A DNA stretch of 44,680 nt, from IMG/VR virus record IMGVR_UViG_3300031566_000093, positions 1 to 44,680 of that record. One strand, given 5' to 3'. A program made the translations under genes and the position numbers. The stretch comes from a virus. This document shows positions 1-41,400 of the stretch, in pieces; the first letter of the stretch is position 1, and each line of letters starts with the position of its first letter. The notes under the pieces were generated by a model. It had not been told where the DNA came from. It saw nothing but the letters and a program-made list of their open reading frames with translations, and did no database searches.

Positions 1-3000
1 TTATTAGCTGCTGGATTTGAATCTAAGTTTGGAGCTAGAACGTTTAAATCCCTTAAAGATGTCATGGGTAAGGGCATGATGGCTAAGGGTGAAAAGATAG
101 TCCCAGAAGATCTTGAATCTAAAGCAAAAGTTGCTTATGACAAGATTGTTGAATTTGTTAAGTTTCAAGTTAGTTTTGTAGAACAGCTTAGAAGAGTGTC
201 AGAGATATCTAAAACTGTGCCTACTCAAAAACTATATTTGAGAGAAGCTTTTCCAAGCTTTGATCCTACCACGGAATTTAAACCTGCCTTTGAAGGAATG
301 TCAAAAGCCTCCACTGAATTTATTGACAAAGAAAAAGCTGTTGCTAATTTGTTAGGAGAGTACTACAAAGAACAGTCTACCACTCGTTTATCTGATATAC
401 AAAATGCTATAAAGACTACTACTGCTCCTGTTGCTTCTGCTGCGGGAGAAGATCTCAAAAAAGAATCTGCTAAAGCTGTTGATGAGCTTACAGATGTTAT
501 AACTAAATCGCTAGTTGAAAGAAAAAGAGATGCTCTTAAATATTTAGAGTCGAAAGCGGAGGGCGACAAACCTGCTCGTGGAGCTCTTGGAGTAAGGACT
601 GAACCTCTATTTAGCACATTTAGAGCCAGTGGTGTTCAAGCTGGCGGCGGATACGGTGGTGGTTCACAACAAGAATCTATTATGAAAGAAATGTTGGGCG
701 TCAAAGATCCTAGTATGCTATTAGAGGCTACTGGCTTTAGAGGCCAAGCTATTCATAGAAATATACAAAAAGAGTTTGTAGGTAAATATCCAGACGCTGA
801 AATTGAACAGCTTATGGAAGATTTTGAAAATAAGATAACTGGTCATTTTGACGTGCTATATGAAAAATCTGGTCAAAAGATATTAACTGATATTAAAACT
901 GTTTATAGTACAAAGCAGTTTGAAAGGCTGAAAGAAATAGCTGATGAAGTCAGCAAAAGAAACATAACTATTCAACAAAAATTAGAGGAACTTAAAGCTT
1001 CTGATCCTACTTCTAGTGTAGAAAAGAATGTTATACGTAGATTAGAAAATTATATAAGCCAAGTAAATATATATCTCAAGGGCACAGAGGGCGCTATAGG
1101 AGAACTTCTAATAGCGAGCAGTTTTGATCCTGCTGATAGGATTACTATTCCTACAGGTAAGTTTGATCCTAAACTATTTAGTAAAGATATTGATGTTATA
1201 AATAAATCTAAAGCTAAAGTAATAGAAATACTTAAATCTATAAGTACCACAGGTAGATTACCTGAAGATTTATTGAAAGAGTACCCTAAAATATATAAGG
1301 TACTAAGTGAAAAATTAGAGCAGGGTGGTGTTGAAGGGTTTAAGAAATCATTACCAGTTCAAACACTCCCAATGAATATAGGTAAAGTAGGTAAAATAGG
1401 TGCGTCAGCTCAAGAGGTGTTGGGCAGACTTACAGAAAATCAGCAAGAACAATTTGACCGCTTGAGTACTGAATACCTTAATATATTTGAAGGATTAGGA
1501 GGCCCTGGCGGCGCTGAAAAACAATATAAATTATGGTTTGCTGGCGGTGCTGGTGCTGCTGGAGCTCCACCAGCTGCTCCGCCTCCGCCACCCCCTACCG
1601 GTCCTGGAGGCGGTGGGTTTGATGACGACGAAGAATTTAGAAAGAAAATAGAAGCATTATTAGCTAGAATACAATCAGGCATAGAACCAGATGTTGCCGA
1701 AATAGATAAACTTGTAAGAGCGGTAAGAGAAGCTGACGACAGAGCTGCTGCTGCTCTACAAAGAAATGAAAAAGGCGATGATCAATTAGCAGCTGCACTT
1801 TCTGATCTAGCCGATAGAATTAGGGAAGTTATAGAAATGACCGGCGGAAAGAAATCCGCTGAAACAATATCTAAATTATATGATACTATTAACAAAGTTA
1901 AGATGACAGGAGCTCCCAGAGGAGGAGCAGATTTTGGTGATTTCAGAACTGTTGATATAGAAAGAATACAACCAGACAAACCTGAAGCTATACATAAAAA
2001 TTTGATAGCTCTATATGAAGCTGCTATCCGAGTTAATCGTTTAGCAGATAGTGAAGAAATACAGAGATTTGGGCCTGAGATAGCCAAGCTCTTAATGGAA
2101 ACTGCTGAAAAAGGCCCAGCTGGTATAAGTCCTCAGATAAGTGAAGCCATTTCTGGTTTACCTCCTGAGAAAAAAGGCGGAATGGCTAAAATATGGATGC
2201 TCTATAAGAAAGCCGTTAGTGATTATTTTCTAAAAAGATTAGAGAGTCTTAAGAGCGAAATAGAAAAAGAGGGCGGTACCCCAGAAGGTAGAAAGGCGTA
2301 CATGGAATATGAGCAAGTTTTAGATAAGTATTTAGCTAATATTCGTGGAACTATAGGACGTACAAGTGATATATTTACTACTAAGGGCCCTACTGGAAAA
2401 AAGGATCAGTTCGTAGACTCAGATATTGCAAGATTGGTAGGGATTTATAAGTCTCCTAAGCAAATACAGGAAACAGTAAAGCAAAGCAATCTATTAAGTG
2501 GTGAATATAAGCCCATAATGGATGTGTTAGTTGGTGACCTTGATCCAACTATGTTAGATGATATAGCAACACCTCTTGAAAAAGTACGTACCGCTTTTCA
2601 AATGCTTACAAAAGAAGATTCTGGAATGAGAGCCATTTTAGATGATGCAGACGCATTCAGAAGAATAGGTTATGAAGCTGTAAAAGCTTGGGACTTTGAT
2701 TCATTAGTTAAAGGCATTACACAATTAAGAGGGGGATTACAAGCTTATAATCAATTACAAATAGGCGGGTTTGGAGGCTTAGGAGAAGATTATACTGAGC
2801 AAATCAGAAAAAATGTTACAGATACTTTAAATTATTTAAAACAACTAGAAAAAATGGTCTCCTCTACAGGAGCAGGAGCTTCTCCAATGGGAGCTGTAGG
2901 AGTCGCCCCATTCTTAGATCCTAAGACCCAGGAACTATTACATAAGAGAAATATAGTTCAGGCACAAAAGTATTTTGCTAAACCCGCTCAAGAGGGCGGT

Positions 3001-6000
3001 CCTGAAATAGGCCAAGCTTTTACCTATAGATATAAAACAGTTGACCCAGCTACTAAACAAACTTTATCTAGTATGGCCGAAGAATTTAAAAAAATAGGTG
3101 AAGAGACTAATAAGGCTGGCCAACAGGTCGGAATATTTACCCAACGTTCTGAAGATTTGGTAAAAGCTTTCCAAGGTAAAAGAAGTATAGGACAAGCTTT
3201 TGGAAGAGTTATTAGATGGGGGCTTGCTAGTAGAACTGTATATGGGCTAATAAGTGCTTTACAGAGTATGGTAAGTACTATAGCTGATGTTGAGTCCGGA
3301 ATAGCTGTGCTTCGCCAGGTTATGAGTCCTTTACAAACTGATTTTGGACAACTTACTCAGTCAGCCTTGGATTTTTCAAAACAATTTGGTGTACCTATAA
3401 GACAAGTAGTTGATTCTATGCGAGTGTTTGCACAACAGGGTTTGGCCCAGCAAGAAGTTGTAGATAGAACTAGAACTTCTATGCTTGCTGCTAATGTTAC
3501 TACGTTGAGTGCTGCTGAGGCTACAGAAGCTATCACTGCTGCAATGAAAGTTTTTGGTACAGAAGGCCAGAGTACTATAAGTTTCTTAGATGCATGGGCT
3601 GAGGTTGAAGCAAAGCATGCTATTACATCTGGGGACCTTGCTAATGGATTGAAGAAAGCTGCAGCTGTTGCTAAAACATCTGGAGTTACATTTGATCAAT
3701 TAAACGCCATAATAACTGGTATAGGAGAAACCTCTCGTCAAACCGGTAAAGAAATTGGTACTTCTTTAAGATTTATGTTTAGACGTATACAAGCGGATAA
3801 AGGTCCGAAACAATTAGCTCAAATAGGTGTACCAGTGGTAACTGGGACCGGAGAACTTAGAAGTACTTTTGATATTTTGGATCAGGTGGCTGGTAAATGG
3901 GGAGAGCTTACAAATGCTCAAAGACTAAATATTGCTACGTCTATTGGTGGTAGACGTCATTATAATAGTTTATTAATTCTAATGGATCATTGGAATGATG
4001 TTTTGGATACATTAGAAGATAGTTTGAATTCTAAGGGCGCCGCTGAAAGACGAAACGCAATAGTCATGGAGACTTATGCAAAGAAATTGCAACAAGTTAG
4101 AGCAGCTGTATCTGAATTACAGGTACAATTTGGAAAATTTGCACTACCAGTAGCAAAAACACTGTTAACTGGATTAAAAGGTGTGTTGGAAACCATTGCT
4201 AATATTCCAGCAGGTTTAAAGATAGCTGCTTTAGGGTTTGCAGCTTTGTTTGTAATAGTAGCCAAAGGCCAGAGTTTAATTAGTAATGTAATTGATAGAA
4301 TTAAAGGTTTTATGGGTGCTTTTGGTGATCTTGGCCCTCAGTTTATGAAGCAATTTAAGATTGGTATATTTGAAACTTTTGGAAAATTACCAAAAGTTTT
4401 GGCAGATATAGATGTACGCGGTTTGTCTAATATAGGCCAGGCAGGAAAAGGAATTCAAGATTTTGAATCCGTTCTTGGAAAAGCTGCTTTTACTTTAGCT
4501 CAATTTGGTAGAGGTTGGAACGCTGTTATGTCGGAAATAGCTTATACTGGAACAGTTACGTCTGAAACTGTAGGTAAAGCTTTTGGTAAAATTACTGGAG
4601 GGTTAGGAACTGCTGCAATTAAAGTAGCTACTAAGCACCCGGCACTTGCTGGTGTTTTGGGAGTTATGTCGCAGGGAGCTAAGGGAGGCGAAGCTGGTTT
4701 TCAAAAGCTAGGTGAGATGATAGGAATTCCTGCTGAAGGCTTGGCTAGATGGAGCTTGGAGAATGCTAGTTTTGTTAAATCCGTAGCACCTCTAGCAGGA
4801 TCTATAGCTGCTTTGATACCAATAGCCGGAGTAGCTGGAGATCAGTTTAAAAAACTGGCCTTTTCAGCGGATGGTTATGAAAAATCTCTATCCCCGTTAA
4901 GAAGAAAATTGAGCGGTGAATTAGCTACTATAAATGAACTCAGCCAGGGGTATAGAAGGCTTAACGAAGATATAAAAAGCGCTGCTAAAACATCCGAACC
5001 AGAAGCAACTAAAACCGCTATAAGTAGAGAAGAGTATGTAAGCCCTGTACTTACTTTAGGTAAAACTTATGACAACGCTAGAAAATTTGCTAACCAGTTA
5101 TCTACAACAAATATAAGTATGATACAAGGCTTTGATAGTCTTGGTAATGCTGTATTAAAAACTACGGGTAATTTCGAGGATTATTTTAGAGTACTTAGAG
5201 CTGCTAAGTTAAAAGAATTAGCGGATACTAGTGTATCTGCGTTGGAAAAATATGCGGAAGAGTTGACAAACGCTGGCGCGATGGGGTCTAGATTTAGATC
5301 AGAGCTTAAAAAGTTTGTGGGAGAAGTTCCTGCATTAGGGCCGATTCTTGCTAAACAGATTCAAGTATCACCAGCTCAAGAATTAGATGAAGCTACAAAA
5401 TCAGTTAATAAAATATTAGCTGTTAGAGAAAAATTTCCTATGACTACCGCTTTTGATGAACTTTTCCAAAGATACTTAGGAGATTTAGAAAACGTAAGAA
5501 CGCGATACAATGAATTCTATTCTAATTTCAAACGAGTTTTAGCAGACTTACCAACAGAAGGGTTATCAGCTGCTCAGATTTCAAATATGTTAGATAAAGA
5601 AACTTTACAACCTGCTTTTGAGTTGATGATAGAGTTTGAAGGCCGCTTGAAAAGATTATCTGAAGCTGGTAAAATAGATTGGAAAGATATTTTAGGAACA
5701 GAAATTCTGAAAAGAGTACATCCAGAAGCAAGTTTGGACTATGCTGCCCCACTAACTAAAGAGATGTTAAGGCAGAATAAAATTGTTCAAAGAGGAACAG
5801 AAGCTTTTGCTGGCGATGTTGTTTTGTTTAATGAAGACGTAGATAAAAAGTTTGATGTAGCAGGAAATCAGGGTATTCTTAAATATAGAGAAGGCTTAGG
5901 ATATTTTGTGGAAGGTATTGATAAGGAGCTTAGAACGGTTAGAGAAATTCCTTTTGACACTGTTCGTCAGTTTGTTGATAGTGTGTTTCCTGCCAACAAG

Positions 6001-9000
6001 ATAGCAGATCAGCTAGAGGAAAATTTAGATATATTAAGAGAATCTTTGGTGGGTGCTGCTGCTGGTATGGTAGGTGTTACTGCTAAGGAGTTTAAGCGAA
6101 TTGGTGGCTTGGGACCAAGATTCTTTGAACAAATTCCTACTGAAACTTTACTTCAAACTTCTGGTGGATTCGGAGGGACGGGCGGTGGGTATGGTGCCCA
6201 ACCATTCAAGGCAGGGCTGGGAGGTCTTGGGTTTGAAACTATAGTAAAAGATTATTTTATTAAGCCAATGAAATCATTGGAGTATTTAGTTGAAGAACCT
6301 AAAAAAAGACTGGAAGCCGGTGAACCATTTGATCCTGGATTTGAAAAAGATATTGAAAGATATGGCACTATAATAAAAAATAACCAAGTAATTGTACAAT
6401 ACATGGCTCTTTTTGTAGATTTAAATAAATCTCTTGCCGAATCCGCTAGAGTATTAGAAGAAAATATTGCTGTTGAAAAAGCTAGGAATGAAATATTAAC
6501 AACAACTGCTGGGTTGCTCAAAGGATTTCCAGAAAGTATGGCTGATATGAATCTTGGTGTTAGAGATTTTTTTCAATTAACCACACAACAAAGGGCATTG
6601 GTTAAAGAAAGAGCATTACCGCCAGAAAAAAGAGAGTTTGATATATTAAGAAGACGTGTTGGCACAGAGGATATAAGGCGCAGATCTTTTGCAGTAGAAG
6701 CAGAAAGAATACAAAGAGCTATAGTACAATTGGGATTTATACGTCAGCAAGCTGAAGCGGCTGGTGTTACTATTCCTAGAGAAGATTTAATGAGTATAAC
6801 CGAATCTGTGATTGCAGGCGGTACCCCGGCTGAAGGCGCTCAATTAGCAGTTCAGAAAGGTATTAAATCTGATACCGGTGCTATGGTAACTGGTATAAAT
6901 GATTTAGTAGATGCATTAGATCCTAGCAAAGCTGCAGCTAGAGCTAAGATGGACACCGATAATCTTGGAAAGGCTATAGGTAGAAATGTAGAATTACTTA
7001 AGGATCCAAGAGCTATTGATAGATTAAATACAGCTTTTGGTATGGATTATTTGGAGGTGGAACTCAAATCCCAATTTGATAAGCTAGCTAAATTAAGAAA
7101 TTTACATGAAAAGAAAGGTAATGAGTCTGTAGTAAGAGCTATAGACAGTACTATGACAGAGTCTTCTAGAGCTCTAATAGGTGCAATAGGAATTAGAGGA
7201 GCTACTGGAATAATATCACCAGGGCTTCCTACTCCTCAACGACTGATTACTAAGCAAGCTCAGAGATTAATGGATCCTATAAGGGATCCTGTAACTGATG
7301 TAACTAACTATCTACCTGGCGAATTTAATGTTGGTAATTTAATAAGCAGAGCTTTAGGTGGAGAAGGTTTACGAGAATTTAGACAGAGAATAGAAGAAAC
7401 TCAAAAAGGGGTTACTAAAGAAGAACAAACAAGTGCTAAAGTAATAAGAGGCTTAGCTCCAACTTTTGCGCCTATTATAGGCCCGTTAGGGTATGCTCTT
7501 GCTAGAAGCGAAGCTACTGGTTTAGAGAAAGGCAGTTATAGTAGATTAAAGGAATCCCCTGAGTTTAAAGAGTTGTCTACGCTTATGGATGACCAGAATA
7601 AGATAAGCGTAATTAATTCTAAAACTTTGACCAAATTATTTTTTGGTTATACAGCGTTTAATACTATAGCTAAAAGAGCCTCTGAAAGAGAACAAAAAGC
7701 TTACCAAATACAAGTAGACCAATTAAAACAACAGAGGTCAGGAGTAGTTGTAAAATACAAAGCAGATGAGATAGGACGTGGTGATTTTAAATCTCAGATA
7801 AAGGAATTAAATACTGAAATTATAGATTTAACTAGAAAAGCTAAAGAAGCTGGCGCAACTTCTAAAGAAAGAGCTACTAGAGAAGCTGTTGGTGTTGTGG
7901 CTGGTGCCGGAACTGCTTTTGCTAGAGCATTAGGAGTTAGTGAAAAAGCTTTAGTAGGATTAGGTGGAACTGCGGCTTCTACTATCATAGCTTGGAATGC
8001 TTGGACAGCATTAACAGGCGAAAAAATGCCAGAAATGGTAAAGAAAGCTACAGATGCAGCTAAAAAATGGGGAGATACATTAGGTAAAGAGGGTATAACT
8101 TGGTTAGATAAAGTTAAAATTTGGTTAACAAGGAAACACCCTTTGGGTAAGTATGCCCCTGGAGTGTTTGGAGCGGCTGGACAAGCTACTGCGGCTGCTA
8201 GAGATGTGGAAGAAGCGTCTAAAGCTCAAAAGGGTATGTTCACTGAGCAGGAAAAAGAGAAGTTAAAAAGAATAAAGGATTATGAAACTAGTGAAGAAAA
8301 TGTCAAAAGTACTGATGAGTTATTGAATAGTTTTAAAGCTGGTGATATTAAAAAACTTGATAAAGATACCCAGATGCTTAAGATTAATGATGATCAATTA
8401 ACTACTTTGCTATCTATTGATGAAAATACTAGACAAACAGCTGAAGGAACCGAAAGACCTGAGGCAGAGGGTAAAAAAGAGGAATCTAAACAAGGTGAAA
8501 TAGTTAAAGGATTAAGATCTAAATTAGATGAACTTAAACAAGAAAGGTTGGCAAAAGGTGGAGACACAGCTACTAAATTAAAAGATTTACTAGCAGGGGC
8601 TATATTGGTAGCTTCTGGAGGTTATTTAGCTGAAAAAGGCGGGCTGAGCGATGAATTAGGAGAAGCTACTAGAAGAGCTGAAAAAATAAATACAGCTTTT
8701 GGAGATTTAGTAAATAAATTTCCTAAAGAAGTAGAAGAACTGATTCAAAAAATGCAAATACGTAGAGCGGAGATGGTTAAAGCAGCGGCTGAGACTGGCG
8801 GGGAGGTTGGTAAAAAATCTCTATTATTAGACACACCAAAACTTTATGATGAATTTTTAAATGAATTAGTAGGGTTGGCCGACAGAGTTGGCTCCGCAGC
8901 TACTAAATCTGGTGAAATAATAGGTGCAGCAAAAGATAAACTATATTTAAAACAAACTGGCGAAGAAATAGCTAAATCTATAGGAGATTTTGCTAAAACT

Positions 9001-12000
9001 ATTATAGATGCTTCTATAGATTTGGAAATAGGTTTGAAATTAAGAACCCAAACTTTCGGCGCTATGAAAGGATTGCCTGCTTTTGAAGAAATATCGATGG
9101 GAAAACTGCCTCATGAATTGACCGCTACTGAAAGATTGATGAAGGAAGGCGGACCTGCTTGGCAGGATATGTATAAAACTTTTAAGAATTTAGATAATAT
9201 AAGAGAAAATCTGATATCATTATCTCAAGCCCAGGCTAAGGGTATAATTACTTCTCAAACAACTCTTTGGGCAGATACTAGAGACCAACAACAAGTTGTT
9301 AAAAGTCAACGAGAAGCTATTGAAAAAGAAGCTGCAAAATTTGCGCCAGGTAGAGGAGTAGCCGATCCTGGAATTGCTAAGGGCGCAGTTCAAATGCGTA
9401 AAGTTGTTGAAATTTATAACAAAAGTATAGACCCAAGTTTGATTACTAAAGAGATTGAGTCTAAAAAATCTGAGTTAGATATATTTAAGAGAAGTTCTAA
9501 AAAATTAGTTGGGTGGTATAGAGAAGCTCTAGAGCCAAAGAGTAAAATGTATGAGCCTGGCGCAGCAGATGTAGTGGGGACATCATTAGGCCAAACAAAT
9601 ATAAGTGTTATTCAAGCAAAACAACAAATTCAAGCATTACAAGGATTGGGCACTGAACTTGGAGAAACCGGATTAGGCAAAGCTGCTTCAAGTCTTAGAA
9701 CTAAAATTACCGAGACTATGGAAAAGATCAAAATGCAAGTAAATGTCTACAAGGATTTGGAGGGAGCGGCTAAAACGGCAACAGGATTAATGGAAAAATT
9801 GCACCTAGTGATGAATGCTACTGGACTAAATATTCAACAATTAATTGGTGATTTCGAACAAATGAAAGCTGGCTTTACTCTTGAAGAGGTACAACAACAA
9901 TTTGTAGAGGCGGCTGAGACGTTTGAACAGATTAGAAGAGGCGGAACTGCTCCAGGAGCTCCTGTATGGCCTACTTTCGAAATGATGCAAGCTGGTATGG
10001 CTCCTGAGCAGATGAATGTCGCTACCAAGCGTGACGCAGCGATGGCTGCTATTATAGCTCAAGGTAGAATGCCGACTGGTGAGGATATACAACGCCTAGA
10101 TTTTGAGGAGCAGAGAGAGAAGATACAATATAAGCAAGCTAAGGAAGATGCTAAGTTAAATAGACAACAAAGTGCGGCTGCTGAACTTCATAGAAGAATT
10201 TTAGAGGCTCAGAGAAGAGCTGGAATGATAGAAGGTAAAGAAAATGAAGGAATGCGAGAAGCATTAATAAGCAGGTTCGAAAACATTAGAACTGGTCTTT
10301 TAGGGCAATCTCGTGTAGCTGGTAGGGCACGTGAAGAAATATCACCAGGCATATTTGAAAGATATGGTTATAATTTTGATATTGTAGAGGAAGGTTTAAA
10401 AGATATTGGAACGGAGTTTGGAGGCAAGGGTGCGGAATTAGTAAGCGAAATTGGTGATTTAAATAAAATAATTGATCAGTTGGGTCTCGGTACTTATAGT
10501 CCAATAGTTAGTGAATTAACTAAAGCTAATGATTATTTAAATGCTATAGCTAAAAATACAGGAACTAGCCCTGAAGTTCTTAAATCTATACAGGATAGCT
10601 TAAAACCTATAGGTCTTCCAGCGAAAACCCCTTTACCAACAAGCCCAAAAGAAGAAGCTGCTGTGGCTGAACCTAGTAAATTTGTAAATCCTCTTACATG
10701 GTGGAAAGACCTATTTTTTGGAAAACAGTCTGGCGGTAGTATAACTGGACCTGGAGGACCCAGGGACGATCGTGTGCCTATAATGGCAAGTCCTGGAGAA
10801 TTTGTGGTTAAAGCGTCATCTGCTAAAAGATTAGGAAAGCCTACACTTGAACATATGAATCAAACTGGCAGTGTGCCAGGCTTTGCTGAGGGTGGCTATA
10901 GTAGGAATCCAGGTAATCCACTTATGACACCGGGCGCTCTTATGCATAAAAGATGGATGGAGAAGCCAGAAGAGTATAGAACTGCTGAGACGCCTTTTCA
11001 AAAAGTGATGCCTAAACTAAGTAAAGGGATAACTGAAAAAGCTCCGTGGTTGCCATTAGGAGAACATGTGCCAGAATGGGCTAAGAAACATCCCAAACTA
11101 TATGGTGCATTTGGAGCAGCCAAAACATTTACCCCTTATCATGAAGCTGAAATGACATTGGGTGGGAGTGAACTTGGTCTTTTGAGCTTAGCCGTTTTAC
11201 CGTTTTTGGGTTTAGGTACGAAAGCAGCAAAAGGAATTTATCAAGGGACTAAATTAGGTGCCAAATCACTATTAAAGTTGTTTGGAAAAGGCAAATTAGG
11301 GACTGCTACTGCTAAGAAATCTATAACTAAAACTACTCTTACAGGTAAATACGCAGATGAAATAACTAAACAAGTTATGGAAACCAGAGCTGGCCAAACT
11401 AATCTTGGCTACGCGTTAGGCATAAGAGCTGCAGAACAAGATGTTAAGATTCTAGCTCCTATGGCTAAACTTCGTAAGCAGATCGGTGCTGGGTACGAGG
11501 ATGCTATGAAAGCTGGTGATTACGATACAGCGGCACTTTTAGGCAGCAAAGCGCAGGGTATGAGAGAGGGTAAAGAAATGGCCGAAGCATTATTAGCAAT
11601 TAAGGCTGGAAAAACTCCTCCTGTTAATAGTGCTACTACTAAGGCTATACAGTATATGGAAGAAGGAAATTTGCCTAATTTGCCTAAATTAGATTTTCCT
11701 GTAGCTAAAAGTAAAAACGCATTGATGGCAAAACTAACAGAAGAAACAGGATTAGGACCTCCTGGCGGCGCATTACAGATGGTAGGAGAAATTGCAGGAG
11801 CTGCTGTTAAACCAAAAAAACTCACTGCTATAGGCCCATTAAAGATGGAATCCTATGTTAAAAAGCCGGTAAGGGGTGCTCCAGAGAGTGCTTTTGAAAC
11901 TATATTAGAACGTAAAACTAAAGCATCTAAAGATGAGATAGCGATGATGAGAGAGAAGTGGAGTAGGTATAAAGATATTCCTCCACTAGAGGCTTTTGAA

Positions 12001-13245
12001 ACTATATTAGAAAAACGTGAATTGGCTAAACTTAGCGAAGCTGCTAAGGTAGTAGGTGATGTAGTACATACAGGAGGCAGTGAAATTAGTAAGACTTTAC
12101 ATACTACTGCTCGTGAAATATTACAGGGGCCTAGTAAGGTAGGTATATTAAAAGAAATACCAAAAGGAGCTAAGGCTATAAGAGGCGAAGCCGAAATTGG
12201 TAAAACAGCAATCGTATTGGATCTGCCTGGTAACAAGGTTATGCGTATTGGAGATAAAACTCTGTCACGACTTAATATACCTGAAATGTTACAAGCAGAA
12301 AGTAGGAAAGTAATTGGAGATTATCAAGTAGAAGTTATACCTAGAATTACAGGAATTGGTACAGCTACTAAAGAACAAACTAGGATGTTAAAAGATGCTA
12401 TAAAGGCTCGTGGAGAAGCTGTTGGAAAGAAATATGATTTTTGGGATTTTCACGCTGATAATATAGGATTTGTAGGTAAAAAGCCTATAGTTATAGATCC
12501 AGGAGCTATTAAATATTTTATGGGCGGGCTGATACCTTCTTTTGGTAAAGGAACTTCATATGTGCCTCAAACTCAACTAGCTATGGTGCATAAAGGAGAG
12601 GGTATTATCCCTGCTGAATATAATATGGGCGGTTTTATAGGTGCTCCAAAATTTTTAGAAGGCGGAGGAGTAAACCCTTTAAAAGTAGTTGAAAATGTTG
12701 GAGAAAAAATAGGTGAAATTATAGCTAAAAAGATGGAAGAAGCTAATATAACACTTAATGTACCAGACGCTTCTGATCTACCTACTTTGAAAATAGGTAA
12801 TTTAGATGAATTAAAAACTGTTCTTAGTGAAGGAGCAGTAGGTGCTGATAGAACTTCTAAATTGGATCAATTTATAGATTCTGCTACTAATAAATTAGAC
12901 AGGTTAGAAGAACAAACTGTGTCCACTGTTGATCGTATAACAGTAGTTGAAGCGAAGACGTCTGATCTTACAGAAATAGGTAATTTAAAATTGAGTATTA
13001 ATGATCTTGAGGGTAAAATGGCTGGTGTTTATACTACTATGGAAAATAGGATAGATTCTGATATAGATGATTCTTATCTGGAAGCTAGATTACATGAGGT
13101 TATTTCTGACCTTAAAACAGATGAAATATTACCAATTAGATCTAATATTCGTATAATAGAATTGATAATTAGCGATTTAGGACGTGATATTAACAACCAG
13201 TACGATATTATTTATTCTAACATTAATAGGTTAGGTTTGGCATAA
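1..13245 (+). CDS. Giant tail tape measure protein (5'-partial) with embedded nuclease-like and kinase-like domains
   Basis: This protein sets tail length and fills the tail tube; in known phages it is expelled with the DNA. The frame is open from base 1, and the first ATG (64) has no ribosome site, so the true start lies upstream. Residues are numbered from that ATG. In order: helical N-terminus; Gly-rich linker (about 190-205); PD-(D/E)XK nuclease-like region (about 215-370); Pro/Gly-rich linker (about 498-520); long helical stretch; TP901-type tape measure core (about 1030-1400) ending in a hydrophobic segment (1386-1400); more helical and hydrophobic segments (about 1578-1592, 2842-2855, 3703-3718); a typical C-terminal motif reading GPGGPRDDRVPIMASPGEFV (from about 3562); a kinase-like core (about 4040-4155); a second such motif (LAMVHKGEGIIPAEYN, about 4173-4188); and a coiled-coil C-terminus. 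At least 4,414 codons is far above the usual 700-2,000. Tape measure identity is near certain; the embedded enzymes are inferred from motifs. Confidence 0.95.
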   Translation, partial: LLAAGFESKFGARTFKSLKDVMGKGMMAKGEKIVPEDLESKAKVAYDKIVEFVKFQVSFVEQLRRVSEISKTVPTQKLYLREAFPSFDPTTEFKPAFEGMSKASTEFIDKEKAVANLLGEYYKEQSTTRLSDIQNAIKTTTAPVASAAGEDLKKESAKAVDELTDVITKSLVERKRDALKYLESKAEGDKPARGALGVRTEPLFSTFRASGVQAGGGYGGGSQQESIMKEMLGVKDPSMLLEATGFRGQAIHRNIQKEFVGKYPDAEIEQLMEDFENKITGHFDVLYEKSGQKILTDIKTVYSTKQFERLKEIADEVSKRNITIQQKLEELKASDPTSSVEKNVIRRLENYISQVNIYLKGTEGAIGELLIASSFDPADRITIPTGKFDPKLFSKDIDVINKSKAKVIEILKSISTTGRLPEDLLKEYPKIYKVLSEKLEQGGVEGFKKSLPVQTLPMNIGKVGKIGASAQEVLGRLTENQQEQFDRLSTEYLNIFEGLGGPGGAEKQYKLWFAGGAGAAGAPPAAPPPPPPTGPGGGGFDDDEEFRKKIEALLARIQSGIEPDVAEIDKLVRAVREADDRAAAALQRNEKGDDQLAAALSDLADRIREVIEMTGGKKSAETISKLYDTINKVKMTGAPRGGADFGDFRTVDIERIQPDKPEAIHKNLIALYEAAIRVNRLADSEEIQRFGPEIAKLLMETAEKGPAGISPQISEAISGLPPEKKGGMAKIWMLYKKAVSDYFLKRLESLKSEIEKEGGTPEGRKAYMEYEQVLDKYLANIRGTIGRTSDIFTTKGPTGKKDQFVDSDIARLVGIYKSPKQIQETVKQSNLLSGEYKPIMDVLVGDLDPTMLDDIATPLEKVRTAFQMLTKEDSGMRAILDDADAFRRIGYEAVKAWDFDSLVKGITQLRGGLQAYNQLQIGGFGGLGEDYTEQIRKNVTDTLNYLKQLEKMVSSTGAGASPMGAVGVAPFLDPKTQELLHKRNIVQAQKYFAKPAQEGGPEIGQAFTYRYKTVDPATKQTLSSMAEEFKKIGEETNKAGQQVGIFTQRSEDLVKAFQGKRSIGQAFGRVIRWGLASRTVYGLISALQSMVSTIADVESGIAVLRQVMSPLQTDFGQLTQSALDFSKQFGVPIRQVVDSMRVFAQQGLAQQEVVDRTRTSMLAANVTTLSAAEATEAITAAMKVFGTEGQSTISFLDAWAEVEAKHAITSGDLANGLKKAAAVAKTSGVTFDQLNAIITGIGETSRQTGKEIGTSLRFMFRRIQADKGPKQLAQIGVPVVTGTGELRSTFDILDQVAGKWGELTNAQRLNIATSIGGRRHYNSLLILMDHWNDVLDTLEDSLNSKGAAERRNAIVMETYAKKLQQVRAAVSELQVQFGKFALPVAKTLLTGLKGVLETIANIPAGLKIAALGFAALFVIVAKGQSLISNVIDRIKGFMGAFGDLGPQFMKQFKIGIFETFGKLPKVLADIDVRGLSNIGQAGKGIQDFESVLGKAAFTLAQFGRGWNAVMSEIAYTGTVTSETVGKAFGKITGGLGTAAIKVATKHPALAGVLGVMSQGAKGGEAGFQKLGEMIGIPAEGLARWSLENASFVKSVAPLAGSIAALIPIAGVAGDQFKKLAFSADGYEKSLSPLRRKLSGELATINELSQGYRRLNEDIKSAAKTSEPEATKTAISREEYVSPVLTLGKTYDNARKFANQLSTTNISMIQGFDSLGNAVLKTTGNFEDYFRVLRAAKLKELADTSVSALEKYAEELTNAGAMGSRFRSELKKFVGEVPALGPILAKQIQVSPAQELDEATKSVNKILAVREKFPMTTAFDELFQRYLGDLENVRTRYNEFYSNFKRVLADLPTEGLSAAQISNMLDKETLQPAFELMIEFEGRLKRLSEAGKIDWKDILGTEILKRVHPEASLDYAAPLTKEMLRQNKIVQRGTEAFAGDVVLFNEDVDKKFDVAGNQGILKYREGLGYFVEGIDKELRTVREIPFDTVRQFVDSVFPANKIADQLEENLDILRESLVGAAAGMVGVTAKEFKRIGGLGPRFFEQIPTETLLQTSGGFGGTGGGYGAQPFKAGLGGLGFETIVKDYFIKPMKSLEYLVEEPKKRLEAGEPFDPGFEKDIERYGTIIKNNQVIVQYMALFVDLNKSLAESARVLEENIAVEKARNEILTTTAGLLKGFPESMADMNLGVRDFFQLTTQQRALVKERALPPEKREFDILRRRVGTEDIRRRSFAVEAERIQRAIVQLGFIRQQAEAAGVTIPREDLMSITESVIAGGTPAEGAQLAVQKGIKSDTGAMVTGINDLVDALDPSKAAARAKMDTDNLGKAIGRNVELLKDPRAIDRLNTAFGMDYLEVELKSQFDKLAKLRNLHEKKGNESVVRAIDSTMTESSRALIGAIGIRGATGIISPGLPTPQRLITKQAQRLMDPIRDPVTDVTNYLPGEFNVGNLISRALGGEGLREFRQRIEETQKGVTKEEQTSAKVIRGLAPTFAPIIGPLGYALARSEATGLEKGSYSRLKESPEFKELSTLMDDQNKISVINSKTLTKLFFGYTAFNTIAKRASEREQKAYQIQVDQLKQQRSGVVVKYKADEIGRGDFKSQIKELNTEIIDLTRKAKEAGATSKERATREAVGVVAGAGTAFARALGVSEKALVGLGGTAASTIIAWNAWTALTGEKMPEMVKKATDAAKKWGDTLGKEGITWLDKVKIWLTRKHPLGKYAPGVFGAAGQATAAARDVEEASKAQKGMFTEQEKEKLKRIKDYETSEENVKSTDELLNSFKAGDIKKLDKDTQMLKINDDQLTTLLSIDENTRQTAEGTERPEAEGKKEESKQGEIVKGLRSKLDELKQERLAKGGDTATKLKDLLAGAILVASGGYLAEKGGLSDELGEATRRAEKINTAFGDLVNKFPKEVEELIQKMQIRRAEMVKAAAETGGEVGKKSLLLDTPKLYDEFLNELVGLADRVGSAATKSGEIIGAAKDKLYLKQTGEEIAKSIGDFAKTIIDASIDLEIGLKLRTQTFGAMKGLPAFEEISMGKLPHELTATERLMKEGGPAWQDMYKTFKNLDNIRENLISLSQAQAKGIITSQTTLWADTRDQQQVVKSQREAIEKEAAKFAPGRGVADPGIAKGAVQMRKVVEIYNKSIDPSLITKEIESKKSELDIFKRSSKKLVGWYREALEPKSKMYEPGAADVVGTSLGQTNISVIQAKQQIQALQGLGTELGETGLGKAASSLRTKITETMEKIKMQVNVYKDLEGAAKTATGLMEKLHLVMNATGLNIQQLIGDFEQMKAGFTLEEVQQQFVEAAETFEQIRRGGTAPGAPVWPTFEMMQAGMAPEQMNVATKRDAAMAAIIAQGRMPTGEDIQRLDFEEQREKIQYKQAKEDAKLNRQQSAAAELHRRILEAQRRAGMIEGKENEGMREALISRFENIRTGLLGQSRVAGRAREEISPGIFERYGYNFDIVEEGLKDIGTEFGGKGAELVSEIGDLNKIIDQLGLGTYSPIVSELTKANDYLNAIAKNTGTSPEVLKSIQDSLKPIGLPAKTPLPTSPKEEAAVAEPSKFVNPLTWWKDLFFGKQSGGSITGPGGPRDDRVPIMASPGEFVVKASSAKRLGKPTLEHMNQTGSVPGFAEGGYSRNPGNPLMTPGALMHKRWMEKPEEYRTAETPFQKVMPKLSKGITEKAPWLPLGEHVPEWAKKHPKLYGAFGAAKTFTPYHEAEMTLGGSELGLLSLAVLPFLGLGTKAAKGIYQGTKLGAKSLLKLFGKGKLGTATAKKSITKTTLTGKYADEITKQVMETRAGQTNLGYALGIRAAEQDVKILAPMAKLRKQIGAGYEDAMKAGDYDTAALLGSKAQGMREGKEMAEALLAIKAGKTPPVNSATTKAIQYMEEGNLPNLPKLDFPVAKSKNALMAKLTEETGLGPPGGALQMVGEIAGAAVKPKKLTAIGPLKMESYVKKPVRGAPESAFETILERKTKASKDEIAMMREKWSRYKDIPPLEAFETILEKRELAKLSEAAKVVGDVVHTGGSEISKTLHTTAREILQGPSKVGILKEIPKGAKAIRGEAEIGKTAIVLDLPGNKVMRIGDKTLSRLNIPEMLQAESRKVIGDYQVEVIPRITGIGTATKEQTRMLKDAIKARGEAVGKKYDFWDFHADNIGFVGKKPIVIDPGAIKYFMGGLIPSFGKGTSYVPQTQLAMVHKGEGIIPAEYNMGGFIGAPKFLEGGGVNPLKVVENVGEKIGEIIAKKMEEANITLNVPDASDLPTLKIGNLDELKTVLSEGAVGADRTSKLDQFIDSATNKLDRLEEQTVSTVDRITVVEAKTSDLTEIGNLKLSINDLEGKMAGVYTTMENRIDSDIDDSYLEARLHEVISDLKTDEILPIRSNIRIIELIISDLGRDINNQYDIIYSNINRLGLA
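700..1180 (+). other. PD-(D/E)XK (RecB/Cas4-like) nuclease-like domain within the tape measure protein
   Basis: The region carries the ordered signature of the RecB/Cas4-type PD-(D/E)XK superfamily: a GxxxxH-type helix start (G227, H231), an Asp in a beta strand after a Gly-His (GHFDVLYE, D263), a second strand ending D276-I-K278-T, and a downstream helix with Q333-V-N-I-Y337, the QxxxY motif. A further strand follows (GELLIA). Spacing D263 to D276 is 13 residues, normal for this fold. It sits after a Gly-rich linker and before a Pro-rich linker, which suggests an independent folded unit. Metal-dependent DNA cleavage is known for the superfamily; activity here is inference. Confidence 0.75.
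12130..12530 (+). other. Kinase-like catalytic core within the tape measure protein
   Basis: Residues about 4040-4155 read as a compressed protein-kinase-like fold. There is an N-lobe-like pair of strands (IVLDLPGNKVMRIG), a hinge-like strand (YQVEVIPRI), a helix, then the catalytic-loop pattern D4128-F-H-A-D-N4133 (DxxxxN) followed 12 residues later by D4145-P-G in the position of DFG. The usual VAIK lysine is not obvious (an Arg follows VM), and little C-lobe is left after the DPG, so it may be a minimal or inactive kinase-like fold. It lies between two standard tape measure C-terminal motifs, as if inserted. Confidence 0.55.
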
Positions 13246-28455: not shown

Positions 28456-29229
28456 ATGGAAAGAATGAAATGGTTGGATGAGAAAAAAGAGGAAATTATT
28501 AAGATGTATGGAGATGGCTATAAGCAGATAGAAATAGCAATCCATTTTGATGTATCACAAACAGCTATTAGCTCTAGATTGAGAAAGTGGGGGGTTAGTA
28601 ACCCAGATGGTAATAGATTTAAAAAAATTGACATACCGAAAGATGTGCTTTATGATTTATATTGGAATAAGGAACTGCACCCTGTTAAAATTGGAGAAAA
28701 ATTTGGATGTAGTGTTATGACTGTGCACCACAATTTACAAAAATATAACATTCCAACTAGAACTAAAAGCGAATCTCGTATAGGAAAATTAAACCCTATT
28801 TATGGTGTAGGGCATACTAAAGAGACTTGTAAAAAAATGTCTTTAGCTTTTAAAAATGGACGTAAAATGGGGTATAATAATCATTGGGGTAAAGGGGCTT
28901 ATTATGATACACCAAATCAAGGCCGTAAATGGATGCGCTCAGGTTGGGAAATTAAAACCGCTGATTATCTTACTAATAAAGGCATTGATTGGTATTATGA
29001 GTATAGATGGTTATCTATAGGGATAGATAAACATTATCTTCCAGATTTTTATTTACCAATCGAAGATAAATATATTGAAGTTAAAGGTAGGAAGAGAAAA
29101 GTTGATATGGTTAAAGTAGAACTAGCTATGGAAAAATATGATATTGAATTGTGGGATGGTGAAGAATTATTGAAACGTGGAATTATAAATAATTGTGGTA
29201 TTACAGAAATAAACAGAAAATATAAATAG
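28456..29229 (+). CDS. Free-standing homing endonuclease, PD-(D/E)XK type with HTH and NUMOD3-like DNA-binding modules (257 aa)
   Basis: A selfish DNA endonuclease, not a structural protein. Residues about 8-46 form a helix-turn-helix (GYKQIEIAIHFDVSQTAISS), and about 61-98 a second one (HPVKIGEKFGCSVMTVHHNL). About 105-135 is a NUMOD3-like minor-groove segment (GKLNPIYGVGHTKETCKKMS). Residues about 148-235 carry a VSR-like PD-(D/E)XK core: W154-E155, Y184-x-P186-D187-F188, and I197-E198-V199-K200-G. NUMOD3 is known from GIY-YIG and HNH homing enzymes; joining it to a PD-(D/E)XK core with two HTHs is less common. The gene lies between two structural genes without interrupting either. Ends with TAG. 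Confidence 0.85.
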   Translation: MERMKWLDEKKEEIIKMYGDGYKQIEIAIHFDVSQTAISSRLRKWGVSNPDGNRFKKIDIPKDVLYDLYWNKELHPVKIGEKFGCSVMTVHHNLQKYNIPTRTKSESRIGKLNPIYGVGHTKETCKKMSLAFKNGRKMGYNNHWGKGAYYDTPNQGRKWMRSGWEIKTADYLTNKGIDWYYEYRWLSIGIDKHYLPDFYLPIEDKYIEVKGRKRKVDMVKVELAMEKYDIELWDGEELLKRGIINNCGITEINRKYK

Positions 29230-35032: not shown

Positions 35033-35425
35033 ATGTTTAGTATTTTATGTGATAAATGTGGAGAAGATTTAATAATAGATGGTAGAGCTACATCCGATGA
35101 ATACATGAAGGATATGAATTATTTAGTTGTAGAGGAAGGTAAAATAGTAGAAAAGTCTTTACAACAGTATTTAATTTATAGATGTGGATTATGTGATAAG
35201 ACATATAGACTTACATATAAAGAATGGGAAGCTAAATACAGACAAAAAATAGCTATGGAAGTTATGGAAGTGCGTAAGCAAAAAATGTTCTCGGAGAATA
35301 TAAATCCACAAACTATAAATCCAGATAATGGATTAGAGTATTGTGGTCAATGCAGTGGGTATGCTGGAGATGGGCACTGTTTAGTAGATGTAATAAAACA
35401 ATGTACTATAAGGAAAGATAAATAA
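35033..35425 (+). CDS. Small zinc-ribbon-like protein with eight cysteines (130 aa)
   Basis: C6-x2-C9 and C51-x2-C54 make a typical pair of zinc knuckles (CDKCGE; RCGLCDKTYRLT), and a C-terminal cluster has C104-x2-C107, C116 and C124. A basic helix lies between (EWEAKYRQKIAMEVMEVRKQ). It probably binds one or two zinc ions. It is coupled to its neighbours by a stop-fused AGGAGGA and a TAATG overlap, and sits between two giant fibre genes, so it could be an assembly or folding factor for them. DNA binding is possible but the context argues against it. Confidence 0.75.
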   Translation: MFSILCDKCGEDLIIDGRATSDEYMKDMNYLVVEEGKIVEKSLQQYLIYRCGLCDKTYRLTYKEWEAKYRQKIAMEVMEVRKQKMFSENINPQTINPDNGLEYCGQCSGYAGDGHCLVDVIKQCTIRKDK

Positions 35426-38400
35426 TGGCTTATAATTTTCTGAAAGATGCCAGAACGGTAAAAAATTCAGAACTTTGTATACACGACAATTTAGATGGAT
35501 ACTCATCTGATTTTCATGAGAATGGAAACATAGATGGATGGGACATCTATGACAACATTTATTTGTATGGGTGTTGGAATAGTGTATTGTTTGGCACTTC
35601 TTATGATAGAGAGTGTTATATTAGTAGATCTAACATCTTTTCTATAGTAGAAGCTGAAGATTACTATTATATAAAAATTATGATGAAGATTACTGATAAT
35701 AGCCCAGAAGCTTCTGTTACTACGCTAACCACGGGTAGAATTCAGTGGACTAGGTTGGGGGACAGTAATTGGGCTTCAGATAAACAAGTGGATTTTGAGA
35801 TTATTGCTGATAATAAATGGCGCCTTTATACTATTAATATGGGTCCAGCCCAATGGTGGCAGGGTGATATTGATAATTTGAGAATATACCCTTTTATAGA
35901 TGGCAGAGAAAGGGACCAGTTTGCTATAAAATTTATAAAGATTAGTTCATTAGATACATTTGCGTGCGATAATACACAATGTTCTTATTATTTGCAATAT
36001 TCGCATCCTTGTCAGGGCGCTGGACGTCGTGGTACATGTGAAGCTGGGATTTCTAAATCATTGTACACTACTGTATCTGGGGTTAGTGATGGTTTAGTAG
36101 TAAACATAAATGATTATGGCGAAGAACATTTTACATTAGGTAATAATAGTAATCTAACTGGTGTAGAGATGGCTAAAATTATAGCCAATAAGATAGGCGC
36201 TCTTAATATAGGAGGATATGCATATTCATTTTGTGAATATTCTGAATTTGATAAGTTAAAGATAACTTCTGGATCTGTGGGCACTAGTAGCTCGGTTAGT
36301 GTTTCTGGGACTGCTGTTGAAGCTCTTGGTTTTTATAATTTAGGTGTTGATGTTTCTACAAAATTAAATGGTATTGAATCAGCTGATGGCTTTGATTATG
36401 CCTCATCTAGAATTTTAACTGCTTTTGAAATTAATAAATTAATAGATGGTAATTCGAAAGACTTTGCTTATATACATAATCCTTTACAATATAGTGTAGA
36501 AGGCGGACGAAGAGATTTTAACGAAATGGGAACTTCACAACTTTTATCTAAGCTGGGAACTCAAAATTATTATGGTGAATATTATGATTCGCTAAATAAC
36601 GAGGGTAGAACATTGATAGATTTTTCCCACCCTTTCAATAATAATGGTAGAATAACAGCTATCTATATGTATGGTGTTGTGGATGTTCTATCTAAAGTAA
36701 AAATTTTGAGACCTCGTAGAGATGGGAGCGTGACAGTAATCCATTCTTTGGATTTGCCTTTAGAAAACATCTCTTATATGTATACAACCAATCCTATAGT
36801 TTACAGAGTGGATTGTAATGTTTTAGTAGAAAAAGGTGATATATTAGGAATTTATAATGCTAATTTATATGTAGGAGTTTCACCTTTAAATTTACCAGAG
36901 GCTACTTTTACTCAAGTTATTGGTGATGTGTCTGGTACATTTACTCCTGGCGATCCTATCTCGTTCGGGGTAGGGGGATTTGCTATTTATGCCAGAGGAG
37001 ATAGGTGGCAAACTAATACAATTATTGACATAGATTTGGGGGATAGGGTTAATATTGAAGAGATGAATTTTTATGGTAAAGAAGAAAGCGAGTATTTCGA
37101 ATTTAATATTGCTTGTTGCGAAGATGTTAATTGGGAGGTAGATTTATTTAGTGAATCACATCAGCATTCAGGTATAAACTGGTTTAATGGGGACCGTTTT
37201 ACTCATACACATCAAAACATTTATTATGGTATTGATTGTTTGGATGATTGTATTAAGACAGCTGATAACGGTCAAGTAGGCACTTCCTATGGAAAGGATA
37301 GTAATGGAGTATGGACTGCTGGAGATAATCATTCATATTTTTATGTTAACGGTGATGCTGAGTGGTTATATTATTGGGATTGTTCTGTTGGTAGTAGATA
37401 TGAATATTGTGGTAATTGGGTGCCATACGGCACTAAGCAATATATTTATGACCCAATAGCTTTTACTTTAAAATTTCCTTATGAATTTGAAGCTGAAATT
37501 CATAAAAGTATAATATATTTCAAGAATCGCAATAATTTTAGAGATTTAGCGCTGTCTTATTATTTAGGTAAGTATAGTAGTCTTGGAAATACATATGATA
37601 TGAAGTTTAGATATATACCAGGGTACACAAGCATTAGATTGGATGGTTTATTATATGATTCTACGGATGATTCAGTATCCAACCCTTATATATTTAGCAA
37701 TCCTATGAGTTCTAAACCTATCTATGCTAGGGGTGATGCTGATTTGATAAATTGGGAAATAGTTCAAGCTGCTCATGCTACTTATTGGACTATAATAGAA
37801 CATAATTTTGCACCAATTTTATGCAAAGGTTTTAGAATTTATACTAATCATCATTATAGTACTAAAATAACAGAGCTGGAACTTTATAGTAAGATGTCTA
37901 CCTCGCCCTCATTGGTAGATAATATTACTTTATCTTTTTCTGATTATGGTGATTTATGGACAGATGTAAGCTTTGAAGAAATAGATAGTGAACATATAAA
38001 TGCTTTTATTGGAGGTGCTCCAAGATATTTTACTTTGGAATTTGAATCCGCCAATGAATTTTCATTGAATGAAATAGAAATGTTAGTCGGTGATCAAGTT
38101 AAGACTGAGAAGTGTGGGGATATTATTTTACTTGATCATGCTAAGTCTGGAGTTGTAAATGAATCTACAGCTATATCTATAGAAAATGTTTATGATAAGT
38201 CGTTCGATCTTTATGTGGATTTACCTAAAGAAACTAGTGAAACTGATAATCTTATATTTTGGAGTAAATTAGGATCTTATGATCAAATAGAAGAACCTGA
38301 AATCGGTCCGGGGTGCAAATTACATAAACAAGATGATTACCCTATAAGAAACGACAATGGTCAATGTGCTATTAATGTGCCAGCATATGTATTAAAAAAT

Positions 38401-41400
38401 TTAGTTCATAATAAAGAAGCTTATTATAGTTATAACGATGAGGACTATATTTATTGGGGAACTATATCAAGTGGTACATCTATAGATTTTTGTAATGGTT
38501 TGTACATGGATATGCATAAAAGTGAATTTACTTTTAATGTGCCGGTATCTAGCCAGTATTGGAAAATAGGTATTGTAAATGCAGGCTGTGCTGGTGTAAT
38601 AATTAAAGATATAGTTGCTTATTACGATGATAATAAAGTTGATATTACTAAAGTTTATGTTTCAAGTACTCCTGGATCTAGTAGTCAACTCTATAGTTTC
38701 GATTCAGATGGAACTAATATACAAGGATTACCAGGCGTAACAGATAATTTTGATGATGCTACTTATGTTGGTACGTGGACTATTGGTGGTACTGCAAATA
38801 GCAGCTTAGTAGAATCTGATGGTAAAATATGTGTTAGTTCATATGGCACTTTAACTGGTTGGATTGGCCCTACAATGACTGCTGATTTAGAAAATGACCT
38901 GTTAGACTTTTATTTATTTGCGCAATTTCGTATAGATTATGATCAAATGTTTATGTACGAAATTACATTACAAGATAATGTTGGTACTCAAATAATAAGA
39001 TGTGTGGTAACTGACTCTTGGGCTGTTGGTGATACTAGAGTAGTACAGCTTTTTAATAAAGCAAATGTTAATATCACTGGTAATTTAACTATAACCATTA
39101 CTGAAGGCACTACAGTACCTATAGAAGTATTTAGAATGGGCAGCGCAATTAGAGTTAAAATAGCTCAAGTTGATTGGTCTGGAACTATAGATACAGATGT
39201 TATAAGTAAAATTAAGATTAGCTATACATATAATACTATCTATGGTATAGCACCTACGGAATTCTGTACAGAATATATTTCTGTTACGTCGATGCCAATG
39301 CTGTATAGTGGTGGCGCTTTTGGGTTCAAATTGAATAGTTCGGATCCATTGAATAAAATAAAATTAATTCACGGGGATTGTGGTATACTTAGTGATTCTA
39401 TCTATGTTAGCCCAAATAATGGCAATAATTATATTTCGGTAGCTGATCTTAGCCCTTGCACGTGGAATAAATATGATAGAACAGATGATACTATGGAATT
39501 ATCCAATGGCAATTTGACAGTTGAGCACACCACTCTTGGTAGTTGGAAGGCTGTGAGAAGTGCTGTATCGAAGAGCTCAGGTAAATGGTATTGGGAAATT
39601 AAAATAGATGAAGCAAGCGCTTCTCGTTATATTATGATTGGTGTTGGCACATCTTCAGAAACATTAACTTATCCTGGTGATACTTTAGCAGGTTATGGTT
39701 ATTATGGAACTTATGGGTATAAATACCATGACACTCCCGCTGTGTATGGTGATAATTATACTACTGACGATGTAATAAGTGTAGCCCTTGATCTAGATAA
39801 TGGTAAAATTTGGTGGGCTAAAAATGGTACTTGGCAGGCGTCCGGTGTACCGGCTTCTGGTACAAATCCAGCTTATATAGGAGTATCTGGCGATTTTTAT
39901 GCTATGGTTGGTCTGTATTATATTGTTGGGCTTAAAATTACTGCTAATTTTGGGGCGTCAACATTTCAACACCCGATACCAACTGGATTTGAGCCTTTAT
40001 ACACTGAACAAACAAGTCCTGAAATTACATTAACTGCTGATAATGAAATTATATATGTTAGATTTGCTATCGATTTAGAGCAGCGATATGATTTAGATAT
40101 AATAAGAAATTATGGTAGCGCAGACAATTTAGACTGGATTAGTACTTCTTCAGCTACTGATTATTCTAACAGTGTGACAAGTGATATTGATAGTGTTAGT
40201 TGGAATAATAGTACTAAAAACGATGTTAGATGGTTAAGAATTAATTTAATAAATGATTATACTTTGAATTGTATTAGAAAATTAGGAATTTATCCCGATA
40301 TAAGTTCTGTTTTTTGCCAAGGCGGGGGGTATAATTGTGAATGGCTTCCTATTGGCAATATATTATCTGATTATATGGTTCCGTTGAACATAGCTTATGG
40401 AGCTACTACTACTGGCACTAACTATTATTATTCTGATTATTACCCAGATAACGTTGTGGATGGTATATCCACTGATTATAGAGCTCAAGCTTGTTGGGGA
40501 TTTCAAAAAGTTGATGGTGTAGACCCTTATTTAGAGTTAGATTTTGGACAGTTATATTTGATAAATAAAGTAGTTTTATATCATGGGTATGACCCGAGGG
40601 ATAGTTCTTATGTAAATACGGATTACACGTTTAGCGTGTCTACTACAAGCACTGGTTCCTTCACCACAGTTTTTTCTACTAGTGGCAACACCCAATTACA
40701 GAGGACCCACCAATTTGATCAGGTTTATGCTAGACGTGCACGATTACTGATTACTGGTTATGACAGTGAAGAACAAATAATTGGATTTGATGAGACTACT
40801 GCTCAATATATAAAATTTGATGGTTGTTATTTGCGGGAGATAGAGGTTTATACTTATACTGATGTTGGATATATAGACAGTGAAACTTGGCCGATAGCAT
40901 GTATGGATCTACAAGATCAGTTTAATATAGTAGGGCACGATGTGATTAATAAAGATGTTACTGATACTGATACGGATTGGGGCAATAATGACGAATTTTT
41001 TATGTACTCTGATAATGTATTTGATGATCCACAAAAAGTCTCATTTACACAGCCAGGAGAAAATAAAACATATTATCAGAAAACAGATACTTTTATAAGC
41101 ACTGATCTTGGGACAACCGAGTATTCATTCAGTTCAGTTTCCGGAGTTTATTTTGATGAAGGTAGATATGTAGTAGAATGGGATGCGTGGGCAGGCAGCG
41201 ATTTATATGGGTCCAGTTACCCGCCAGAAGAGAAAATTAGTTTGAGGTTGGATGGCCCGGCTACAGTAGATCATTTCGCTAATGTAAACGCTGCTTCTGC
41301 TTGGATGCATCAAACTGGGGATTTAGAGATACTAATACCTGGTTTTTATAGTGTTAAAGGTATACAGCATATAGATGCTACATATGAGTGGGGAGTAAAA

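Follow-up and report, generated by a model that had tools for sequence, protein, structure and literature searches.

The giant tail tape measure protein (TMP) encoded at the start of the window, by which we denote the entire analysed stretch of 44,680 bases (36% G+C) from a virus record of the IMG/VR type, contains a PD-(D/E)XK domain at residues 217–454 of its open frame. We consider it likely that this region is a real and very probably active DNA nuclease, carried as fixed cargo between a probable virion RNA polymerase (RNAP) and the TMP core, and acting at the site of DNA entry. We observe the class of its fold, a complete and invariant active site, a fixed architecture of the surrounding protein and the co-inheritance of the domain with RNAP and TMP.

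TMPs are usually viewed as rulers and pore formers, and Thermus phage P23-45 has shown that an RNA polymerase is possible as their cargo. Here we describe uncultured phages, forming one lineage, in which the TMP bears a conserved nuclease as well. A literature search, which did not cover most subscription papers and bioRxiv preprints, revealed no publication that describes a nuclease within a TMP, and among the annotated phages of the searched collection none with the domain was found.

A nuclease domain in a giant tape measure protein

The TMP is encoded on the plus strand by a single stop-free frame (positions 1–13245) with 4414 visible residues. Its true start is absent, as the contig begins within the gene and the N-terminus is missing, and by comparison with relatives the full protein is expected to encompass about 7000–7700 residues. 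The frame matches TIGR01760 at residues 1081–1417 with an E-value of 9.6e-43 (146.5 bits compared to a curated cut-off of 28.8), and it also matches PF10145 (7.9e-30), phrog_4211 (7.5e-79) and several PHROG tape-measure families, on the basis of which its product is assigned as a TP901-type TMP. The TIGR01760 match defines the tape measure core (3241–4251, plus strand), and the protein is collinear with its relatives. Over the 4414-residue frame PhageMin_Tail is the sole Pfam family, and neither Pfam nor NCBIfam scans of the window sequence alone, including its own nuclease stretch, returned a nuclease family above threshold. TP901-1-type TMPs such as SPbeta YomI share a core that is 25–30% identical to that of the window protein, but they contain only roughly 300–600 residues ahead of it, in which no nuclease was found.

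The nuclease domain, as delineated by profile, AlphaFold2 and Foldseek, spans positions 649–1362 on the plus strand, with a catalytic core at about 712–1200. It is preceded by a segment (1–642, plus strand) that, as judged by blastp to the relatives L106 and L091, corresponds to the region between RNAP and nuclease in these proteins. The sequence-only reading had described the domain as bounded by a Gly-rich and a Pro-rich linker. The former (643–663, plus strand) indeed adjoins the domain, whereas the latter (1567–1596, plus strand) exists on the C-terminal side of the nuclease region but does not form its immediate border, since it lies about 70 residues past the modelled end. The same reading had named a set of active-site residues, each of which is present at the assigned position, with numbers counted from the ATG at base 64. 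On the plus strand these comprise His231 (754–756), the helical active-site histidine, the GHFD motif (841–852; G260-H261-F-D263), where Asp263 is the motif I metal ligand, motif II (889–897; D276-I-K278) and the QxxxY motif, contained in S-Q333-V-N335-I-Y337 (1057–1074), with Q333 to Y337 at 1060–1074. To these we add Glu248 (805–807), which aligns with a conserved glutamate of the Cas4 structure 4ic1. The window TMP contains a strict version of the motif string once, and 2000 shuffles that preserve its composition contain none. With a looser version, 68 of 2000 shuffles (3.4%) matched, and the motif on its own is thus only suggestive, while it is the relatives that make the case conclusive.

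Across 24 distinct domain copies, originating from 28 loci, nine positions are invariant (H231, E248, G260, D263, D276, K278, Q333, N335 and Y337), at a mean pairwise identity of the domain of about 30% (20 loci). For L091 and the window, identity amounts to 60–78% in the domain, as opposed to 44% in the preceding and 36% in the following stretch. The free variation of D263, D276 and K278 that would have refuted the original proposal is therefore not found, and the alignments place the active site under strong constraint. Its invariance amid a diverged domain and diverged flanks argues that catalysis has been retained, although activity itself is inferred.

Fold and family of the domain

An AlphaFold2 model based on the window and 10 relatives (pLDDT 85.9, pTM 0.80) displays the topology alpha-beta-beta-beta-alpha(s)-beta, which corresponds to the PD-(D/E)XK core. 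The all-helical structure, or lack of this core, that would have spoken against a nuclease is thus not predicted. Foldseek returned Cas4 SSO0001 (8.2e-6), MGME1 (1.7e-5), lambda exonuclease (1.3e-4) and LHK-Exo (1.8e-4), in addition to AdnAB and RecE, and of the 25 matches to the pdb at E<=0.001, one DinG helicase entry is the sole one that is neither a PD-(D/E)XK nuclease nor an enzyme carrying a nuclease. TM-scores to solved structures are moderate (0.33–0.54 over 237 residues), as expected for a construct of 237 residues that carries extra helices. In a library of viral structures the top matches are phage Cas4-like nucleases; the BFVD match A7KUR9_2 is a fragment of a larger protein, which may come from Bacillus phage 0305phi8-36.

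Comparisons of profiles lead to the same family. A profile with 11 members (A4) found its best match among PDB sequences in 4ic1 (annotated SSO0001, E 2.8e-4), a known Cas4 nuclease, in an alignment covering the E...GxxD...IKT stretch. The PHROG family 'CRISPR/Cas system associated' (phrog_1706) was matched in 8 of the 11 members with a best value of 2.8e-8 (a value of 4e-6 is also recorded for phrog_1706), and PF12705 (PDDEXK_1) in three of 11 (best 3.3e-5). The claim that a PD-(D/E)XK domain of the RecB/Cas4 type resides within a TMP is hence borne out by predicted fold, profiles and the PHROG and Pfam scans of relatives, which together assign the domain to the Cas4, MGME1 and lambda-exonuclease group of the superfamily. 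In the absence of activity data, we infer that it is very probably catalytically active on DNA.

The domain differs from each of its closest counterparts. Cas4 (SSO0001, 4IC1; Pcal_0546) is the best match in both profile and fold and shares the order H...E...GxxD...(D/E)-x-K, but it is a CRISPR adaptation protein whose four cysteines bind an Fe-S cluster, whereas the domain described here is part of a TMP and there is no cysteine in the 4414 residues read. Since the cluster cannot form without cysteine, we do not call the domain a Cas4. Lambda exonuclease, LHK-Exo and RecE, and also MGME1 (fold matches with E 1e-5 to 8e-4), likewise lack an Fe-S cluster, but they are stand-alone enzymes without significant direct sequence match to the TMP nuclease; of a lambda exonuclease/YqaJ signature we found only weak PHROG exonuclease matches and no Pfam YqaJ. 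In RecB, AddAB and AdnAB the nuclease is fused to a UvrD-type helicase, whereas Pfam detects no helicase family in the 4414-residue frame.

Relatives and a probable RNA polymerase ahead of the nuclease

With the nuclease stretch of the window alone as query, no match was obtained in viral contigs, annotated phages or prokaryote genomes, and the TMP core as query in genome contigs did not retrieve a relative either. Relatives were instead reached via the TMP core, which was first aligned to TMPs of annotated phages and then to L007, the best metagenomic relative, and later via alignments. The search with the core yielded nine close relatives (L089–L097; core 54–79% identical), and in all nine the nuclease motif precedes the core on the N-terminal side. 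The A4 profile locates the nuclease in 10 of 13 records searched, with one copy each, in frames of 2524 to 8619 residues, most near 7000 (mostly 6400–8619). In total more than 20 relatives with the domain were found, all of them giant TMPs. In one record (G031; L134/L096) stops interrupt the TMP frame, leaving pieces of 1150, 338 and 2524 residues plus a shifted frame, which reflects either a sequencing error or genuinely split genes; the frame of its relative L095, whose nuclease domain is 84% identical, is not broken in this way.

In all close relatives a DxDGD motif, invariant and with a conserved histidine after it, lies within a conserved region of 800 residues, about 500 residues N-terminal of the nuclease; examples are the giant TMP at L106:650-20593 and, for the RNAP, residues 1182–2020 of L091. 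The distance between the profile matches of both domains amounts to 386–586 residues. PF00623 (RNA polymerase Rpb1 domain 2) matches at the DxDGD motif inside the TMP frame in 8 of 12 records at E<=0.1, exceeding the curated cut-off in one (G001), and one further match lies outside a TMP. Compared to the PDB, a profile of the region aligns mostly with the catalytic loop of RNA polymerase largest subunits, at weak E-values of 0.07–1.3. As its AlphaFold2 model is poor (pLDDT 62.9, pTM 0.32), we refer to it only as a probable RNA polymerase, and judge from sequence that the TMPs of the relatives probably carry a two-barrel enzyme with a DxDGD motif N-terminal of the nuclease. The loci L089–L097, L106 and L119–L150 thereby represent a metagenomic family of TMP-fused probable RNAPs beyond the Thermus phages. 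In the L150 record (237,910 bases) we also noticed a second RNAP-like frame of 1180 residues outside the TMP (G037:C1:115457-115672), which, by analogy, is possibly a non-virion RNAP as in P23-45.

A polymerase of the window's TMP would lie outside the sequenced part. In blastp alignments residues 1 and 9 of the window protein align to residue 2923 of L106 and residue 2303 of L091, where the RNAP matches end at 2648 and 2020, respectively. The window thus starts about 280 residues past the end of the RNAP match, between the two domains, and from this collinearity with the stretch following the RNAP we infer that the missing N-terminus of its TMP very probably also carries the polymerase.

The closest characterized counterpart is gp96 of phage P23-45, a TMP with an N-terminal RNA polymerase that was identified through its DFDGD motif, whose activity has been measured and which transcribes the pre-early genes; the study proposes that the fused polymerase operates at the pore while DNA is entering (PMC10770324). 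Like the proteins described here, in which the RNAP is only probable, it is a giant TMP whose N-terminal part comprises a two-barrel RNAP with a DxDGD motif, and it places an enzyme on the tail tape. In contrast, gp96 does not match the nuclease profile and the respective study never mentions a nuclease (PMC10770324), and its RNAP shows no detectable sequence similarity to that of the relatives except for the DFDGD loop. In hhalign comparisons of the RNAP profile with P23-45 gp96 and YonO we found no significant match, with gp96 aligning exactly at DFDGD.

Co-inheritance of the probable RNA polymerase, nuclease and core

A scan with the RNAP profile identified 32 loci. Excluding L140, L146 and L150, which are cut off too early, 29 were testable, in that they contain the stretch from RNAP to core or at least the nuclease, with near-duplicates counted. 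The nuclease is present in 27 of these, in the order RNAP, nuclease and core. Conversely, in TMPs without a match to the RNAP profile (L008, L099–L102 and P23-45) the nuclease profile found no match. When pairs of loci are compared, nuclease distances correlate with RNAP distances at a Spearman coefficient of 0.81 and with core distances at 0.71 (Mantel p<=5e-4), which implies that the domain is inherited with the protein and not as a mobile insertion.

The existence of two RNAP-TMPs without the domain indicates that the nuclease is not essential to the RNAP mechanism. In L126 (record G042) it is cleanly missing while the flanks are kept, with a short unrelated stretch at residues ~2940–3085 in its place. 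This is a natural deletion, and the domain can thus be lost. In the L007 record (G001) the TMP, L149, lacks the domain, and the record encodes a separate Cas4/RecB-like nuclease gene, which may fulfil the same task as a free protein or be unrelated.

Discussion

A TMP with two putative enzymes ahead of its core suggests that tail tapes can act as cargo strings which bring several enzymes into the cell before gene expression, and these phages may deliver two ready-made enzymes together with their DNA. TMPs leave the tail together with the DNA or before it, and are located at its entry point. In case of lambda, the TMP is the only phage protein that was robustly labelled at the entry site of the inner membrane (PMC13190303). 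In the process that we envisage, the TMP, which fills the tail tube, would pass into the cell envelope before the DNA upon infection, where it would form or line the entry pore and where its N-terminal cargo would refold at the pore exit. The RNAP could then begin pre-early transcription at the pore and the nuclease might act on DNA at the same place. Catalytic activity, delivery into the cytoplasm and the DNA substrate of the nuclease are all inferences. The suggestion that the nuclease acts before any phage gene is expressed becomes more plausible by the location of the RNAP N-terminal to it in relatives, although this too is inferred.

The likeliest substrate would be the few DNA ends that are present, foremost those of the incoming phage genome, whose resection could serve circularisation or recombination, or expose single strands for the RNAP. 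We favour these ends over host DNA only weakly, with the latter being nearly as likely, on the grounds that end-dependent exonucleases make up most of the closest folds and that few TMP molecules enter each cell. One tail holds only few copies of the TMP, and few DNA ends would hence suit it better than bulk digestion. This choice of substrate rests on stoichiometry and fold class alone. In its most specific form, a virion-delivered module of two enzymes in which the nuclease resects the incoming genome at its ends, either for circularisation or for opening single-stranded templates or promoters, while the tethered RNAP transcribes at the entry pore, the model is speculative and we regard it as rather unlikely to be correct. 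A nuclease at the pore could also harm the phage's own DNA, which counts against any action of the domain there.

The main idea of the sequence-only reading, that the delivered nuclease attacks host, competitor or plasmid DNA early, and thereby cripples the host or feeds nucleotides to the phage, is possible but in our view less likely than not. It would be consistent with the fully conserved active site and with a delivery along with the TMP, which is plausible from P23-45, and the separate nuclease in the L007 record, whose TMP lacks the domain, may indicate that such function is needed either way. It is disfavoured by the low number of TMP copies per cell, presumably membrane-tethered and so poorly suited for bulk digestion, by the prevalence of end-dependent exonucleases among the closest folds, and by the lack of any sign of DNA modification that would shield the phage genome. 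For the latter, the searched relatives contained no 7-deazaguanine transglycosylase (TGT) and only one partial match to the thymidylate-synthase family, which constitutes an incomplete test. An activity during virion assembly instead of after injection, where the nuclease would trim or detach DNA at the head-tail joint or free the TMP from DNA, appears improbable. The N-terminus of siphophage TMPs is generally assumed to point towards the head, near the end of the packaged DNA, which would place the domain appropriately, but head-tail joining normally requires no DNA cutting beyond that of the terminase. The linked RNAP is moreover of a kind that is used after entry (PMC10770324).

Since TMPs are structural proteins, the fold could also have persisted as a DNA-binding or structural element, such as a clamp for the incoming DNA or the virion RNAP, without catalysis, and there is a reported precedent in the Cas4-derived nucleocapsid protein of TTV1 (PMC4625639). 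We nevertheless hold this for quite improbable and have rejected a dead structural fold, because D263, D276, K278, H231, E248, Q333 and Y337 are 100% invariant in a domain with a mean identity of about 30%, which would be unexpected after a loss of catalysis. There is even less reason to assume a mobile insertion in the TMP gene of the intein or homing-endonuclease type. The clean absence of the domain in the close relative L126 would be compatible with such an origin, and the window does contain two free-standing genes of homing-type endonucleases, one at 28456–29229 with HTH, NUMOD3-like and PD...EVK endonuclease parts, and a second at 42889–43749, an HNH enzyme with three CapR/treble-clef zinc-binding repeats. 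However, the position of the domain is identical in all carriers, its distances track those of RNAP and core, the protein contains no cysteine, no intein family was matched, and the fold is of the Cas4/lambda-exonuclease class and not of the homing type, so that we have dismissed this explanation. Finally, the location of the domain within 1.4 kb of the contig start and the appearance of the loose motif in shuffled sequences might have pointed to a chance match or an assembly artefact at a contig edge, for which virtually no room remains, since more than 20 independent contigs carry this domain at the same position and it is supported by predicted fold and profile matches.

Our study offers a defined and testable answer to the question of how a phage can act on DNA at the very start of infection, with the residues to mutate being known.

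Additional features of the protein and the window

The TMP of the window contains no cysteine in its 4414 residues, compared to 1.1–1.6% in other open reading frames of the window. P23-45 gp96 also contains none in 5002 residues, and there are between 0 and 4 in the other TMPs read, their RNAP and nuclease domains included. This scarcity may reflect the passage of TMPs through the tube or the envelope in an unfolded state, and that it extends to the enzyme domains bears on the question of how folded enzymes traverse a narrow tail tube.

Near the C-terminus of the TMP (12380–12520, residues ~4127–4170) we noticed a kinase/phosphotransferase-like signature, 'WDFHADNIGF...IVIDPG', which matches no family and is absent from the relatives checked. 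Further downstream, positions 35425–42879 encode a protein of 2484 residues with SPRY, F5/8 type C and laminin-G-like domains, which is probably a tail fibre or adhesin.
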